Source: a bacterium
GTDB lineage: Bacteria; Vulcanimicrobiota; Xenobia; Xenobiales; Xenobiaceae
NCBI GenBank assembly: GCA_017458675.1
Contig: JAFTAM010000010.1
Span: 1 to 47,505, forward strand
Length of the DNA stretch: 47,505 nucleotides
Direction of reading: 5' to 3'
Shown: positions 8,936 through 47,505 of the stretch, one piece after another
Layout of the letters: every line of letters begins with the position of its first letter
Position numbering within the stretch: the first letter of the stretch is position 1
Program-made: the position numbers and the translations under genes
The notes under the pieces: generated by a model
The model's input: the letters and a program-made list of their open reading frames with translations, nothing else
Database searches by the model: none
Told to the model about the DNA's origin: nothing

Positions 8936-9112
8936 CCCGTGTCATTCTGAGCGCAGCGAAGAATCTGTCGAATATAGATCCTTCGCCTTGGGCTCAGGAT
9001 GACACAAAGTTTGCCATTGAGAGCGCAGCAAAGAATCTGTCGAATATACTTCCTTCGCCTTAGGCCCAGGATGACACAAAGTTTGCCATTGAGAGCGCGG
9101 CAAAGAATCTAT
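8936..9112. repeat. REP-like element in a 72-bp tandem array
   Basis: A 72-bp unit starts at 8943, 9015 and 9087 (the last partial). Each unit joins a GAGCGCAGCGAAGAATCT half to a CTTCGCC...CAGGATGACA half. It is the only tandem amplification of this REP family in the window. The gap 8808-9328 otherwise holds only the repeat-derived fragment at 9127-9163. Confidence 0.75.
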
Positions 9113-9163: not shown

Positions 9164-9328
9164 GTGGATTTGTATTTATCATAATTCAAATCAGCATATA
9201 TGAGTTGTCATAACATGGAAGAAACTGCGATGTATGGAATATACTGCGATATATGCGGCATAACAAGAAATTCATCAAAAACAGGTAAATTTAATCAACC
9301 CCCAAAAGCATTTAATTTGGAGGCAGCA

Positions 9329-10965
9329 ATGAAGCAGAATATATTTGATTTATCCCATTTTAACAATTACCGTGAAGGGAACAGATTAGAAGTTAAAAAG
9401 GCAAATGACGGCTTGCCTAACAGTCTGTGGGATACTTATTCTTCATTTTCAAATTGCAATGGCGGCGTAATAATTCTTGGGGTTAAGGAACGTGAAGACG
9501 GAAGCTGGCATACTACTCATCTGCAGAATAAAAATAAGCTTCTTAAGGACTTTTGAATACTATAAATAATCGAAATAAAGTCAGCGTTAATTTGCTGAAG
9601 GAAGAAAATGTTGAGACTTATGAAGTTGAAGGAGATGTAATTATAGTTATTTATGTCGCAAAGGCAGATCGGGTTTATAAACCGGTTTATGTAAATAACG
9701 ACTTGTTTGGAGGTTCATTCCGCAGAGACCATGAAGGGGACTATCATTGCTCGGAAGCCGAAGTCAGAGGGATGTTGAGAGACCAGGCAGAGAAGGGAAC
9801 GGATAACAAAATTCTGCTAAATATGGACCTTGATATTTTTTATGCGGACACTGTAAAGAGCTTCCGCAGCCGTCATATAACGGTGAATCCAAACCATGTA
9901 TGGCACAGGCTTGATGATAACGCTTATCTTGAGAGAATAGGCGCGGCGTCGGTTTCAGACGTTGACGGCAAGCTGCATCCGACAGCGGCCGGGCTTCTAA
10001 TGTTTGGAGAGGAGTATAAGATCCGATATGAATTTCCGGATTATTTCCTCGATTACCGTGAAATGCTGGATCCGTCAATCAGATGGACGGACAGGCTGGA
10101 ATCAAGTTCCGGCGAGTGGTCAGGAAATCTCTTAGATTTCTTTTTCAGTATGGAAAGAAAGCTGCTGAGAGATTTAAAGAATCCGTTCAGACTGGAAGGC
10201 ATTACCCGAATAGACGAGACTCCTGTTCATAAAGCTATAAGAGAAGCTCTTGCGAATTGTATTGCCAATGCTGATTTTAATTTCCCGCGCGGAATTGTTA
10301 TATTGAAAAATCCTGATTCCATCATTATAGAAAATCCGGGAAGCATTATAACAGGCAAGGCGCAGATGCTTAAAGGGGGTATATCGGAGCCCAGAAATAA
10401 GACTGTTATGAAAATGTTTAATCTTATCCGAGTCGGTGAAAGGGCGGGAAGCGGCGTACCGGAGATATTCAGCGTATGGGATAGCGAGGGATGGATAAAT
10501 CCTATAGTAGAAGAGCTTTATCATCCGGACAGAACTATATTGAGATTATCTTTTGAAGATAAAAATAAAGATATTCAACAAAATCCGGCGATTGAATCGC
10601 CAAAGCCTGCGATTAGTGAAGATAATCCGGCGATTGAATCGCCAAAGCCTGCGATTAGTGAAGATAATCCGGCGATTGAATCGCCAAAACCGGCGATTGG
10701 TGAAGAAAAGCCGGCGATTGAAACAATAATTTCGGCGATGCTGGTACTAAACTATAATAAGCCGACAATATGCAATATTGAGAAAATTTATTCCTCAATA
10801 GAGGTGAATCAGGTTTTTGGCGTCGGCGATGTCAAGAACATATTAAATTGCTCTGATTCAACAGCAAGAGCCATAATTGCAAAATTGAGAGATGAAGTCA
10901 AGGTAATTGTTGCTGTAAAAGGACAGGGGAAAGCTAAATATCGCTTTATAAATATAAATGAGTGA
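9329..10965 (+). pseudogene. AlbA/Schlafen-type ATP-binding regulator, frameshifted
   Basis: Part one starts at ATG 9329, 5 nt after GGAGG (9319-9323), and carries the AlbA_2/Schlafen region: EGNRLEVKKANDGLPNSLWD, SFSNCNGGVIILGVKE. It ends at TGA 9554-9556. The same protein continues in the next frame from about 9553 (NTINNRNKVSVNLLK) to 10965. Restoring one G (TTTTGG for TTTTG) would rejoin them. Part two includes the HATPase_c_4-like segment (HKAIREALANCIANADF...IIIENPGSI, GERAGSGVPEIF), a repeated linker and a C-terminal winged helix (LNCSDSTARAIIAKLRD). The stop overlaps a TTG as TTGA, so reinitiation could still give two half-proteins. Confidence 0.75.
10582..10707 (+). repeat. Three 42-bp tandem repeats encoding a proline-rich linker
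   Basis: Units start at 10582, 10624 and 10666 and encode NPAIESPKPAISED or a close variant; a partial fourth unit follows. The first two are identical over most of their length. They form a flexible linker between the ATP-binding region and the C-terminal winged helix of the frameshifted AlbA-type gene. Confidence 0.85.
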
Positions 10966-42830: not shown

Positions 42831-44396
42831 ATGGCTGACGTTAGGAAAGAACAGGAGCGCGACGAGCTTCACCGCACTATCTGGAATATGGCCAACGATC
42901 TGCGGGGATCGGTGGACGGCTGGGATTTTAAGCAGTACGTGCTGGGTATGCTGTTCTACCGCTATATTTCGGAAAATCTGGCGGCCTTTATCGACCGGGA
43001 AGAGCATGAGTCCGGGGATTGCGATTTCAGCTATGCCGCTATGAACGACGCCGAGGCGGAAGATATCAGAAACGATATCGTAGAGGTCAAGGGCTTTTTC
43101 ATGCTTCCCTCTGAGCTTTTCTGCAATGTCAGAGCTCGGGCCGGGCGGGACGAGAATCTCAACGAAACTCTGGAAAAGGTCTTTAAGAATATTGAAGCAT
43201 CGGCGCTGGGGACGCCTTCGGAACCAGCGTTCAAAGGGCTGTTTGAGGATTTGGACGTCAACAGCAACAAGCTGGGAACCACGGTGGCCAGGCGCAACGA
43301 AAAGCTGGTCAAACTTCTCAACGGCGTGGGGGAGATGAAACTCGGCGACTATCAGAACAACACCATCGACGCTTTCGGCGACGCCTACGAATTTTTGATG
43401 GGCATGTACGCCTCCAACGCCGGCAAGAGCGGAGGCGAGTATTTTACGCCCCAGGAGGTCTCCCGTCTGCTGACGCTGCTGGCGGTGGGGAGCCGAAAGG
43501 AGATCAACAAGGTTTACGATCCGGCCTGCGGCTCCGGCTCTCTGCTGCTGCAGTCGGCCAAGATTCTTGGCCCAGGTCATGTGCGTCAGGGCTTTTTCGG
43601 TCAGGAGATCAACCTGACCACTTACAACCTCTGCCGCATCAACATGTTCCTTCACGATATATCCTACGACAAATTTTCGATTAAAAACGGCGACACTTTG
43701 ACCGACCCCCAGCATTGGGACGACGAGCCATTTGAAGTGATCGTCTCTAATCCGCCCTATTCGGTAAAATGGGCCGGCAAGTCCAACCCTCTGCTGATAA
43801 ACGACGAGCGCTATTCTCCCGCCGGCGTTCTGGCCCCCGAATCCAAAGCCGATATGGCCTTCATTATGCATTCTCTGAGCTGGCTGGCCGCCAACGGCGC
43901 GGCTTCCATCGTCTGTTTCCCGGGCATCATGTACCGAGGCGGCGCCGAGCAGAAGATCCGCGCCTATTTAGTCAGAGAGAATTTTGTCGACTGCGTGATT
44001 CAGCTTCCCGCCAACCTTTTTTTCGGCACTACTATCGCCACCTGCATTATGGTTTTGAAAAGAGGCAAGACGGACAATAATGTGCTGTTTATCGACGCAT
44101 CCGGCGAATTTGTCAAAGCCACCAACAACAATAAGCTGTCCGAGGCCAACATTCAGAGGATTCTGCAAGCCTATGAAAAGAGAGAGAGCGAGGCCCATTT
44201 CTGCAGCCTGGTTCCCAACGCCGCCATCGCCGAAAACGCCTATAACCTCTCTGTCTCCGGCTACGTTGAGGCCGAAGACAAGCGTGAAAAGATCGACATC
44301 AAGGCCCTGAACGCCCAGATTAAAGAGATAGTAGCCCGGGAGGAAGAACTGAGAGCCGAAATCGACAGAATAGTCGCCATGATCGAGGGCGATTAA
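42831..44396 (+). CDS. hsdM: Type I restriction-modification DNA methyltransferase subunit HsdM
   Basis: This 521-residue protein is full length for HsdM. The N-terminal helical domain ([21 protein letters not shown]) is followed by the N6-adenine methyltransferase domain with the S-adenosylmethionine motif DPACGSG (230-236) and catalytic NPPY (307-310). [10 protein letters not shown] and [11 protein letters not shown] are also typical. It methylates adenine at the site chosen by HsdS. The start at 42831 follows GAGGAGAG. HsdS begins 1.8 kb downstream; an HsdR nuclease is not in the window. Confidence 0.95.
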
Positions 44397-44407: not shown

Positions 44408-44530
44408 CAGGCAGAAGGTCATTTTATCCCGAGCCTTTGGCGAAGGAGCCGGAAGGTAGAAAGATTTGTCATCCTGAGCCTCCGGCGAAGGATCTTTAAA
44501 GCAACAAGGTTCTTCGCTGCGCTCAGAACG
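44408..44530. repeat. REP-like elements after hsdM
   Basis: A degenerate half, then TCATCCTGAGCC, GCGAAGGATCT and CTTCGCTGCGCTCAGAA. Confidence 0.7.
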
Positions 44531-44563
44531 GACTAAAGCCGAATGCCGATACGGGCAGTTGAA

Positions 44564-44735
44564 ATTCGGTGATAGTTCGGTAAAAGGTTCGGTGATTGTT
44601 CGGTAAAGATTCGGTGAAAAGTTCGGTGATCGTTCGGTAAAGATTCGGTGATAGTTCGGTGAAAAGTTCGGTGATAGTTCGGTAAAAGGTTCGGTAAAAA
44701 ATTCGGTGAAAGTTTGGTAAAAGGTTTGGCGAAAC
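44564..44735 (+). repeat. Array of fifteen 11-12 bp TTCGGT(A/G)A units upstream of the AlbA-type regulator
   Basis: Fifteen consecutive units of 11 or 12 bp start ATTCGGT or GTTCGGT (the last two are GTTTGG) and continue with A/G, A and an A/T-rich spacer. The spacing is close to one DNA helical turn. The array ends 13 bp before the ATG of the next gene and fills its promoter region. It is not a CRISPR: units are too short and there are no spacers. It looks like an operator array for cooperative protein binding, or a slippage-prone regulatory tract. Confidence 0.85.
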
Positions 44736-44748
44736 AGACGGTGTAAAT

Positions 44749-46185
44749 ATGGAGCAGCAACAGAGCAGCGAGGTTTTTTTTAGCGCAGAGTCGGAGAATA
44801 CCGAATTTAAAGTACAGCTTCCCAAAGATTCCGCTAAATATATAAAATCGGTGATTGCCTTTGCCAATACCCAGGGCGGAAGGCTGATTATTGGGGTAGA
44901 TGATAAAACCCGCAGGATTGTCGGTATTGACGGAGACGTTCTTTTTAAGACAATGGACGATATTGCCAACGCCGTTTCAGATTCGTGCGTTCCGCAGATA
45001 GTTCCCCGTATAGAGCCGAAAACCGTTGACGGTAAAAATATTATTGCGGTTACGGTTTCGCCGGGTCCTAACAGACCTTATTATCTTAAATCCAAAGGCA
45101 AAGAGAGCGGCACTTTTATCAGAACTGCCGGCACGTCCAGGCCGGCTTCTGCCGATAAAATTAAAGAGCTGGAAATGGAGGGGAGGCGCGTTTCCTGGGA
45201 CGAGCAGCTCTGTATGGGTTTTGAGGTTACGGAAAACGCCGTGCGCAAGCTTTGCGGGGACGTATTGAAATACCGTGATAAAGCGGGCCTGACTAAGTTG
45301 GCGCTTAGTGAAGCGCAGCTTGTCAGTTGGAAGCTGCTCCGCCGGAACGGGAGCTCTTTTTTGGCTTCCAACGCTTTCGCTCTTCTCGTTTCTGATGTTT
45401 TCCCATTTTCCAAAACTCAGTGCGCAGTCTTTAAAGGCGCCGACCGCGCGGTCTTTCTGGATAAACGCGAATTTTCAGGACCTGTTTATGAACAGATAGA
45501 GCAAGCCGTTAATTTTGTTATGCGCAATATTCGCCTGGGGGCCGTCGTTGAAGGAGCGATTAGGAAAGAAGCCTATGAGCTTCCCGAAGCGGCGGTGCGC
45601 GAAGCTGTCGTCAACGCTCACTGTCACCGCAGCTTTACTGAGGAATCATGCGTACAGATAGCCGTTTACGAAAACCGTTTGGAGGTAACTTCTCCGGGCG
45701 GGCTGTATAACGGTCTCACCCTCAAAGAGGCGCTCAGCGGTCACTCCAGGCTGAGAAATAAGGTTTTGGCCAACCTGCTCAACCAGATGGGCCTGGTCGA
45801 AGCCTGGGGCAGCGGCATCGGCCGCATTATCAGAGCGTCTGATGCTTACGGTTTGCCCGAGCCTGAATTTGTGGAATATGACAGTATGTTCAGGGTCAAT
45901 ATTTTTCGCAGTTCGCCTTATGAGACGCTCGACGGCAGCCGCAGGAAGAAGTCCGCGGCGGTCCGCCGCTCGGAAAACCCGCGCCTGCCTGTAAATGAGA
46001 CGCGGGGCAGAATATTAAAAATAATCGGGGACGACAACAATATTTCAGCGGCAAAGATAGCCGAGGTTCTTTCACTCTCCGTGCGCAGTGTGGAAAAGCA
46101 TTTGAGGGAGCTGCGCGAAGCCGGTCTTCTGCTCAGGCACGGTCCCGCCCGCGGCGGCTATTGGGAAATCGTCAGTTTGGATTAG
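44749..46185 (+). CDS. AlbA/Schlafen-type ATP-binding transcriptional regulator
   Basis: This 478-residue protein has an N-terminal AlbA_2 (Schlafen-like) DNA-binding region (ESENTEFKVQLPKDSAKY, VIAFANTQGGRLIIGVDD). A HATPase_c_4-like region follows (LPEAAVREAVVNAHCHRSF, RLEVTSPGGLYNG, NLLNQMGLVEAWGSGIGRII). A C-terminal winged helix comes last (KIAEVLSLSVRSVEKHLREL, RHGPARGGYWEIV). It lies between hsdM and hsdS, a usual place for such accessory regulators. No clear Shine-Dalgarno precedes ATG 44749. The repeat array immediately upstream is a natural candidate for its own binding site. The first AlbA-type gene (9329-10965) has the same overall plan. Confidence 0.85.
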   Translation: MEQQQSSEVFFSAESENTEFKVQLPKDSAKYIKSVIAFANTQGGRLIIGVDDKTRRIVGIDGDVLFKTMDDIANAVSDSCVPQIVPRIEPKTVDGKNIIAVTVSPGPNRPYYLKSKGKESGTFIRTAGTSRPASADKIKELEMEGRRVSWDEQLCMGFEVTENAVRKLCGDVLKYRDKAGLTKLALSEAQLVSWKLLRRNGSSFLASNAFALLVSDVFPFSKTQCAVFKGADRAVFLDKREFSGPVYEQIEQAVNFVMRNIRLGAVVEGAIRKEAYELPEAAVREAVVNAHCHRSFTEESCVQIAVYENRLEVTSPGGLYNGLTLKEALSGHSRLRNKVLANLLNQMGLVEAWGSGIGRIIRASDAYGLPEPEFVEYDSMFRVNIFRSSPYETLDGSRRKKSAAVRRSENPRLPVNETRGRILKIIGDDNNISAAKIAEVLSLSVRSVEKHLRELREAGLLLRHGPARGGYWEIVSLD

Positions 46186-46219: not shown

Positions 46220-47505
46220 ATGAACAGAATAGAGGAATTATTGCATGAGCTCTGCCCAGAAGGGGTGGAATATAAGAAGCTGGGGGAAGTGGCAGACTAT
46301 ATTCGTGGCATTACTTATAAAAAAAGTGATGAATTGAATGATAATATAAACAATGGTATAGGTGTAATAAGGGCTAATAACATTTGGATTGATAAAAACA
46401 TATTAAACTTTAGTGACATTAAATATATAAAAGAATCTAAGAAAATTAAAGATGTGCATTATCTATATAAGGATGATATATTAATATGTGCTGGTAGTGG
46501 TAGCAAAGAACATATCGGTAAAGTTGCTTATATTTTTCAAGATCTGCAGTATGTTTTTGGCGGATTCATGGGTGTAATTAGAAACAAGAGCATAAAAGTA
46601 ATATTGCCTCGTTTTATTTTTCATATTTTAACTAGTGAAATATTTAGAATGTATTTAAAAAATAATTTAGATACTTCGACTATAAATAATTTAAATGCAA
46701 AACTTATGAATGATTTTCTCATTCCTGTTCCGCCTTTGCCGGTCCAGGAGGAGATTGTGCGCATCCTCGACAAATTTACCGACCTCACTACCGACCTCAC
46801 TACCGACCTCACCCGTGAACTGGCATTGCGCCGGAAGCAGTACGAATACTACCGCGATCATCTGCTGACATTTTCAACAAATGTAGCATATAAAACATTA
46901 GGTGAAATTGCCACCAGTATATATAGAGGCTCTGGCATCAAGAGAGAGGATATTACGGAGACTGGGACCCCTTGTGTAAGGTATGGTGAAATATATACTT
47001 CTTACAATATCCACTTTAATCAGTGTATTTCTCACACTGAAGTAGATAAAATTAAAAATCCGAAATATTTTTCTTCTGGAGACCTTTTATTTGCAATTAC
47101 TGGAGAAAATGTTGAAGATATCGCTAAATGTATCGCATATACGGGATCAAAAAGTTGTTTAGCAGGTGGTGATATTGTTGTATTAAAACACAATGAAAAT
47201 CCTAAATATTTAGCATATGCTTTATCAACATTTAATGCTCAAAAGCAAAAGACGAAAGGTAAAAGTAAAAATAAAGTTGTGCATTCAAGTGTTCCAGATA
47301 TTGCTAGTATAACGATTCCTGTTCCTCCGCTGCCGGTTCAGCAGCGCATTGTCAATGTGCTGGATAACTTTGAAGCGGTCTGCAGTGATCTGAAGATTGG
47401 CCTGCCGGCGGAAATAGAGGCTCGGCAGAAACAGTATGAATATTATCGCGATCTGCTCTTGACATTCACCGAAAAGGGCGCTATAACCCAGACAGACAGA
47501 CAGAC
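46220..47505 (+). CDS. hsdS: Type I restriction-modification specificity subunit HsdS, cut by window end
   Basis: The frame runs open from ATG 46220 to the window end (428 codons). Two target-recognition domains (about residues 14-170 and 218-370) are markedly AT-rich. They sit beside GC-richer conserved spacers (IPVPPLPVQEEIVRILDKF and IPVPPLPVQQRIVNVLDNF, with RRKQYEYYRD and RQKQYEYYRD). Such a base-composition contrast is usual where recognition domains are exchanged. The first spacer contains TDLT repeated three times (12-bp units, about 46778-46812), the kind of length-variable spacer known to alter site spacing in EcoR124-type enzymes. At the very end a CAGA tetranucleotide run begins. 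Confidence 0.92.
   Translation, partial: MNRIEELLHELCPEGVEYKKLGEVADYIRGITYKKSDELNDNINNGIGVIRANNIWIDKNILNFSDIKYIKESKKIKDVHYLYKDDILICAGSGSKEHIGKVAYIFQDLQYVFGGFMGVIRNKSIKVILPRFIFHILTSEIFRMYLKNNLDTSTINNLNAKLMNDFLIPVPPLPVQEEIVRILDKFTDLTTDLTTDLTRELALRRKQYEYYRDHLLTFSTNVAYKTLGEIATSIYRGSGIKREDITETGTPCVRYGEIYTSYNIHFNQCISHTEVDKIKNPKYFSSGDLLFAITGENVEDIAKCIAYTGSKSCLAGGDIVVLKHNENPKYLAYALSTFNAQKQKTKGKSKNKVVHSSVPDIASITIPVPPLPVQQRIVNVLDNFEAVCSDLKIGLPAEIEARQKQYEYYRDLLLTFTEKGAITQTDRQ
46778..46812 (+). repeat. 12-bp tandem repeat (ACCGACCTCACT) in the central HsdS spacer
   Basis: Three units encode TDLT TDLT TDLT between the two recognition domains. In EcoR124 and EcoR124/3, two or three copies of a four-residue repeat change the length of the DNA gap recognised. 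Confidence 0.9.
47489..47505 (+). repeat. CAGA tetranucleotide tract at the 3' part of hsdS (continues past window)
   Basis: Four full CAGA units plus one base reach the window end. The tract lies inside the open frame just after the second conserved helix. A tetranucleotide tract in a coding region would shift frame when its copy number changes. Its full length is not visible. Confidence 0.75.

Follow-up and report, generated by a model that had tools for sequence, protein, structure and literature searches.

Array of direct repeats upstream of a Schlafen-type gene

What does a long row of short direct repeats do in front of a gene that lies inside a type I restriction-modification locus? 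The question is raised by a stretch of 47,505 nucleotides from a bacterium of the family Xenobiaceae (contig JAFTAM010000010.1, assembly GCA_017458675.1), hereafter referred to as the window; its genes and arrays described below are located on the forward strand. The array at positions 44565–44748 is real. Thirteen exact copies of the word TTCGGTRA, each followed by 3–4 variable nucleotides, start at 44565, 44576, 44588, 44599, 44610, 44622, 44633, 44644, 44655, 44667, 44678, 44690 and 44702, spanning 44565–44709 with start-to-start steps of 11, 12, 11, 11, 12, 11, 11, 11, 12, 11, 12 and 12 bp. Three degenerate units, TTTGGTAA (44713), TTTGGCGA (44725) and GACGGTGT (44737), follow with the same 11/12-bp spacing as far as the ATG at 44749, so that the array ends at the start codon of the Schlafen-type gene described below. 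The 15 units of TTCGGT(A/G)A at 11–12 bp intervals reported in the first-pass annotation were thus recovered, or 16 if the last degenerate unit is counted, and the gap of 13 bp that had been placed between the array and the gene is not real.

The word TTCGGTRA occurs 23 times in the whole window, with 13 of these occurrences in the array, as compared to 2.25 expected and a maximum of 7 in 100 shuffles. Scores of up to 181 were obtained for the array with TRF, and the upstream region yielded z=6.5 in a 160-bp dinucleotide-shuffle test. No second array of this type was found in the rest of the 3.28-Mb assembly or in the 197 other genomes searched. The array is thus unique in its own genome, which suggests that its target is local.

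At a mean spacing of 11.4 bp and a helical repeat of 10.5 bp per turn, each unit is rotated by approximately 31 degrees relative to the previous one; the total drift over the 13 exact units is 377 degrees and the resultant is 0.07. The sites therefore wind around the helix, and the earlier proposal that all of them face nearly the same side of the DNA does not hold. A simple scan identified no sigma-70 promoter in the array region, which makes read-through from hsdM combined with a roadblock as likely as a masked promoter. A search of the window against Rfam returned no RNA families. Repeats of the GAAGGATC/CTGAGC type were observed at 8949–9110 and 44420–44540, and apparently represent a dispersed REP-like element of the source genome.

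The downstream protein combines an RNase-like domain with a winged helix

The gene behind the array (44749–46185) encodes 478 amino acids and is flanked by hsdM (42831–44396; TIGR00497, 1e-221) and hsdS (46220–47503; PF01420, 3e-36) of a type I restriction-modification locus. The hsdS gene runs to the contig end, and the contig ends before any hsdR. Three copies of TACCGACCTCAC (encoding TDLT) form in-frame spacer repeats at 46777–46812 within hsdS; such repeats are known between the target-recognition domains of hsdS.

The protein displays the COG2865-like domain order, with Pfam matches over the cut-off: SLFN_AlbA_2 (PF04326, 4e-24; residues 14–133, positions 44788–45147), HATPase_c_4 (PF13749, 4e-25; residues 302–384, 45652–45900; PDB relative 3lmm) and a C-terminal winged helix (HTH_24, 3e-8; residues 416–460, 45994–46128), which was identified by Pfam, alignment and structure prediction. 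AlphaFold2 provided a usable model for the winged helix only (pLDDT 72–85, overall 38.5). The recognition helix, SVRSVEKHLREL, covers approximately residues 445–457 (46081–46119), and Arg446, which is position 3 in our numbering, is located near the N-terminus of this helix in the model. The nearest solved sequence relatives are winged helices of the Lrp/AsnC and ArsR/MarR types (e.g. PH1519, 1ri7), from which the window's winged helix differs in being fused behind the AlbA_2 and HATPase_c_4 domains.

The N-terminal domain can be aligned to mammalian Schlafens, and the residues E14, E19 and D52 align with E205, E210 and D248, the three-carboxylate RNase triad of rat SLFN13 (PMC5862951). E14 and E19 are invariant in three relatives. 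The gene had been annotated as an AlbA-type regulator, an identity that is not supported; in view of the alignment with the RNase triad, its product is better regarded as a probable RNase effector that carries its own DNA-binding domain.

The array word recurs in front of the winged helix in relatives

A scan of the GTDB genomes for TTCGGTRA arrays with at least one 11-bp step yielded 40 loci. Four of these fall in Schlafen-type genes of the window's family, all from Lachnospiraceae, and in all four the TTCGGTGAA units are intragenic, located in the linker directly before the winged helix. No Schlafen-type gene was detected by profile search at the other 36 loci, most of which resemble dispersed intergenic repeats of another kind. 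The closest relative identified, L108, shares 60% identity with the window protein and carries TTCGGTGAA units in its linker but no upstream array, whereas the window protein's own linker is devoid of such units. In another member (L103), the N-terminal half is very different (approximately 20–24% aligned identity), yet the winged helix, the recognition helix and the units are the same as in the window.

Most of the matches to the array word in IMG/VR were repeats within coding sequences or intergenic arrays of an unrelated kind; no close relative of the protein was found there, and a plasmid search with the KTTQ-linker protein gave no match. Intergenic 11-bp arrays of TTCGGTGATCC were observed away from Schlafen genes in Bacteroidota (L089, L090, L095, L096, L101, L104, L105, L113), and occur several times per genome in Chitinophaga barathri. 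Three viral contigs in IMG/VR (L012, L014, L041) display TGTTCGGTAAC/TGTTTCGCAAC arrays with 11-bp steps upstream of a small protein gene, which could be another protein-bound repeat array.

To place the array in a wider context, we surveyed 152 distinct genes, mainly PF13749 matches in 290 genomes, for self-match at lags of 9–13 bp in the 160 bp that precede the winged helix, with z>5 relative to dinucleotide shuffles as the threshold. A strong linker repeat was identified in 57 of 105 testable genes, as compared to none of the 105 in either of two control segments of the coding sequence; the remaining 48 genes had no strong linker array by this test. Upstream repeats were identified by the lag 9–13 test in only 4 of 104 genes, namely the window gene, a paralog in its own genome (L064), L203 and L168. 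Thus, an intragenic array is the rule and an upstream cognate array the exception, and the upstream arrays that were to be looked for at other AlbA-type genes do not form a general pattern. The paralog L064 has both an upstream array and a linker repeat, with one common word, GAGTCGATAAAT. The upstream repeat words of L203 and L168 are unlike their own linker words, so that among the surveyed genes only the window gene and L064 are preceded by a clear cognate array. Upstream and linker arrays had been expected to complement each other among the survey genes, but did not do so (Fisher p=1). A dimer pattern scan of the 290 genomes gave matches in 15 genomes, and the reversed-pattern control gave 2 matches.

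Some related genes without a linker array have other repeats nearby. Direct and inverted CGCAAAA repeats immediately precede both L059 (G000:C188) and L061 (G003) and represent a candidate operator of a different type. Three near-identical genes (L225, L226, L228) are preceded by TTGTGAAGTTT-like repeats in steps of approximately 11 bp.

The word covaries with the recognition helix

We compared the array words of 58 genes with the sequences of the encoded proteins. Word similarity was correlated with recognition-helix identity when N-terminal identity was controlled for (partial Mantel rho 0.303; 0 of 2,000 permutations), but not with the N-terminal part (0.007; partial −0.018). In a thinned set of 28 genes with N-terminal identities below 50%, the partial correlation between word and helix was 0.339 when the N-terminus was controlled for and 0.328 when the remainder of the winged helix was controlled for (0 of 2,000 permutations each), and the antisense control was not significant (0.073; 314 of 2,000). 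Among pairs whose N-terminal identity was below 0.28, the words agreed at 8 or more of 10 bases in 12 of 12 pairs with a helix identity of at least 0.6, as compared to 12% of those with a helix identity below 0.1.

The pattern extends to individual residues. In a table of the 15 sequences of the window's helix group, which was drawn up after the pattern had been seen and ignores kinship, Arg at helix position 3 is accompanied by TTC in 11 of 11 cases (L050, L076, L084, L103, L108, L134, L203, L258, L261, L263, L269) and Thr by TTG in 4 of 4 (L132, L184, L192, L229). Covariation between linked segments could partly reflect shared descent. The divergent N-terminal half of L103, the residue-base code and the exchanges described below argue against descent alone.

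Arrays and winged helices are exchanged together

The joint exchange of array and winged helix is evident from near-identical genes. Two plasmid genes, L292 from Arcobacter sp. and L293 from Aliarcobacter cryaerophilus, are each located just before hsdR in type I loci. Their DNA identity is 0.90–1.00 up to approximately position 1080 of the gene, drops to approximately 0.47–0.67 over the array and the winged helix, and returns to 0.93–1.00 at the start of hsdR. In L292, TTGGGTGAAAAG is paired with the helix STTAIEKHI, and in L293, AACTAGGGWRAA is paired with TVKGIEWQI; the latter pairing recurs in the unrelated L125 (TSKGIEWHI). Similarly, L256 and L257 have N-termini that are approximately 99% identical (DNA 0.92–0.98), winged helices that are 32% identical and different words. 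Less sharp exchanges of array and winged helix were observed in L252 and L155. The linkers of L254, L256 and L257 contain stray units resembling the words of other members, as if arrays were rebuilt after each exchange.

Unit number also varies, which bears on the copy-number rheostat for the restriction genes that the first-pass annotation raised as a possibility. L157 and L159 are 99% identical and contain approximately 4 and at least 8 units of 12 bp, respectively. Repeat-based variation is known for type I restriction-modification systems, and both the setting and the varying unit number would suit a phase-variation or contingency repeat, where slipped-strand changes in copy number tune expression from an upstream array, or switch the frame of an 11-bp intragenic array, with no specific protein involved. 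Slippage in the 11-bp intragenic arrays would cause frameshifts. We nevertheless consider this explanation unlikely, in that most intragenic arrays consist of 12-bp units, for which no frame switch is possible, and the window array is heterogeneous with mixed 11/12-bp spacing, unlike a freshly slipping tract. In addition, slippage alone does not predict that the unit sequence tracks the recognition helix and is swapped with it. Short-sequence-repeat contingency loci and hsdS spacer repeats share with the present arrays the tandem repeats of variable copy number in restriction-modification loci, but differ in that the unit sequence of the Schlafen-type genes fits the recognition helix that they encode.

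Every array in the comparison has the sense orientation, including the upstream arrays of the window and L064, and the AlbA_2 domain belongs to an RNase family with a conserved triad. Both observations would also be compatible with units that act in the mRNA, where the protein would bind or cleave its own transcript through the AlbA_2 domain or the winged helix and so regulate itself post-transcriptionally. This is very unlikely, since the word tracks the helix of the winged-helix domain and not the AlbA_2/HATPase part, as indicated by the partial correlations, and steps of 11/12 bp suit duplex DNA.

The DNA word is conserved in different reading frames

The linker is the usual place of the arrays, and their periods are mostly multiples of three (lag 12 in 51 of 63 arrays). 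The repeats might thus be nothing other than the DNA of a flexible peptide linker, in which case the window's upstream array would be a degenerate remnant. However, one and the same word is read in several frames and encodes unrelated peptides. In the helix group x-x-x-x-(V/I)-(E/D)-K, TTSGGWGAAAAG or a closely similar word is found repeatedly and is translated into LGEK, FGVK, SSEK or alternating SVK/FGE. In L126, a ACACCCAGAAA array with an 11-bp period runs through all three frames and encodes TQKTPRKHPENTQK; 11-bp periods likewise run through all three frames in L055, L175, L182, L240 and L256, and the Lachnospiraceae linker arrays have 10- and 11-bp steps. Periods of 10 and 11 bp rotate the reading frame, which indicates that the DNA word and not the peptide is conserved; a peptide requirement alone would not maintain such periods. 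The window array, with its mixed spacing, is followed directly by the start codon and has no reading frame of a winged helix behind it. Together with the helix correlation, the frame data largely refute the linker explanation, which we regard as highly improbable.

Finally, the swapping of array and winged helix as a block and the stray units of other specificities in the linkers of L254, L256 and L257 might suggest that the repeats are recombination substrates for cassette exchange with no role in binding, but this can hardly be the case, as recombination needs a common sequence and the words differ from cassette to cassette and fit the incoming helix.

Model for autoregulation and relation to known systems

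We conclude that the array is probably an autoregulatory row of sites for the winged helix of the downstream Schlafen-type protein itself. The suggestion of the first-pass annotation that the adjacent protein binds the array for autoregulation is well supported, albeit indirectly, by the recurrence of the same word with the same helix elsewhere, by their covariation and by the joint swaps. In our model, which is derived from sequence comparisons, each unit of 11–12 bp would be one site. The recognition helix (SVRSVEKHL) would read the TTCGGT half in the major groove, with Arg446 contacting the C:G pair at position 3, and the A-rich half would accommodate the wing in the minor groove. Protomers could then bind in large numbers side by side along the 184 bp to the start codon, as a spiral or filament. 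Coverage of the array would hold the Schlafen effector, which is potentially toxic, at a low level of expression until a signal causes release, and the distal hsd genes, including the downstream hsdS, might perhaps be damped as well. In other members, the self-directed array in the linker-coding DNA before the winged helix may act as a roadblock or operator within the gene.

The arrangement of direct repeats in front of the gene for a DNA-binding protein is reminiscent of the plasmid partition systems TubR-tubC (type III) and ParR-parC (type II). In both, the protein covers a row of direct repeats that precedes its operon and acts as an autorepressor; TubR is a winged-helix protein and forms a filament on the repeats (PMC5016525). 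However, the window locus has hsdM and hsdS as neighbours and no TubZ or ParM cytomotive partner, and is thus neither a partition operon nor a member of these systems. In further contrast, the words vary among the Schlafen-type genes together with the helix, most arrays are intragenic, and the protein is a Schlafen-type effector.

Proteins consisting of a Schlafen RNase, a minimal histidine kinase and a winged helix have been described near BREX loci in at least 1017 taxa, and the same source cites the bacterial Schlafens of anti-phage defence as effector RNases (PMC12839542). Their domain order is that of the window protein; the passages retrieved from the paper make no mention of DNA repeats or self-recognition. 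Three genes in our set (L292, L293, L297) adjoin hsd or BREX genes. In the open-access papers searched, we found no description of arrays, intragenic operators or autoregulation for AlbA_2, COG2865 or Schlafen proteins. The proposed self-control device appears to be both widespread and undescribed.

With less confidence than for the window array itself, we lean towards the view that these genes represent a widespread family of defence effectors with an exchangeable address cassette. The cassette would consist of the winged helix and its own array, usually placed in the linker coding sequence in whatever frame fits and sometimes upstream, with one recognition specificity per paralog. Such a cassette would mark a gene for its own product wherever the gene is moved, and separate specificities would let paralogs avoid cross-regulation. 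The window contains a second, frame-shifted Schlafen-type gene (9200–10965), with AlbA_2 at 9200–9556 and HATPase_c_4, a repeat linker and a C-terminal domain at 9553–10965. Its intragenic array (10581–10722), located just before the C-terminal domain, consists of GGCGATT/TGCGATT at exact 21-bp steps, corresponding to two helical turns. This word differs from TTCGGTRA, as expected for paralogs under the model.

If correct, the model would explain the oddly repetitive linkers of many Schlafen-type effectors as regulatory sites that are conserved within the coding sequence of the gene itself, to the detriment of the peptide. The matched helices and DNA words would constitute a natural data set for the recognition code of winged helices. 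Finally, the arrays would give direct access to the question of how Schlafen effectors, which are potentially toxic, are kept off beside restriction and BREX systems.
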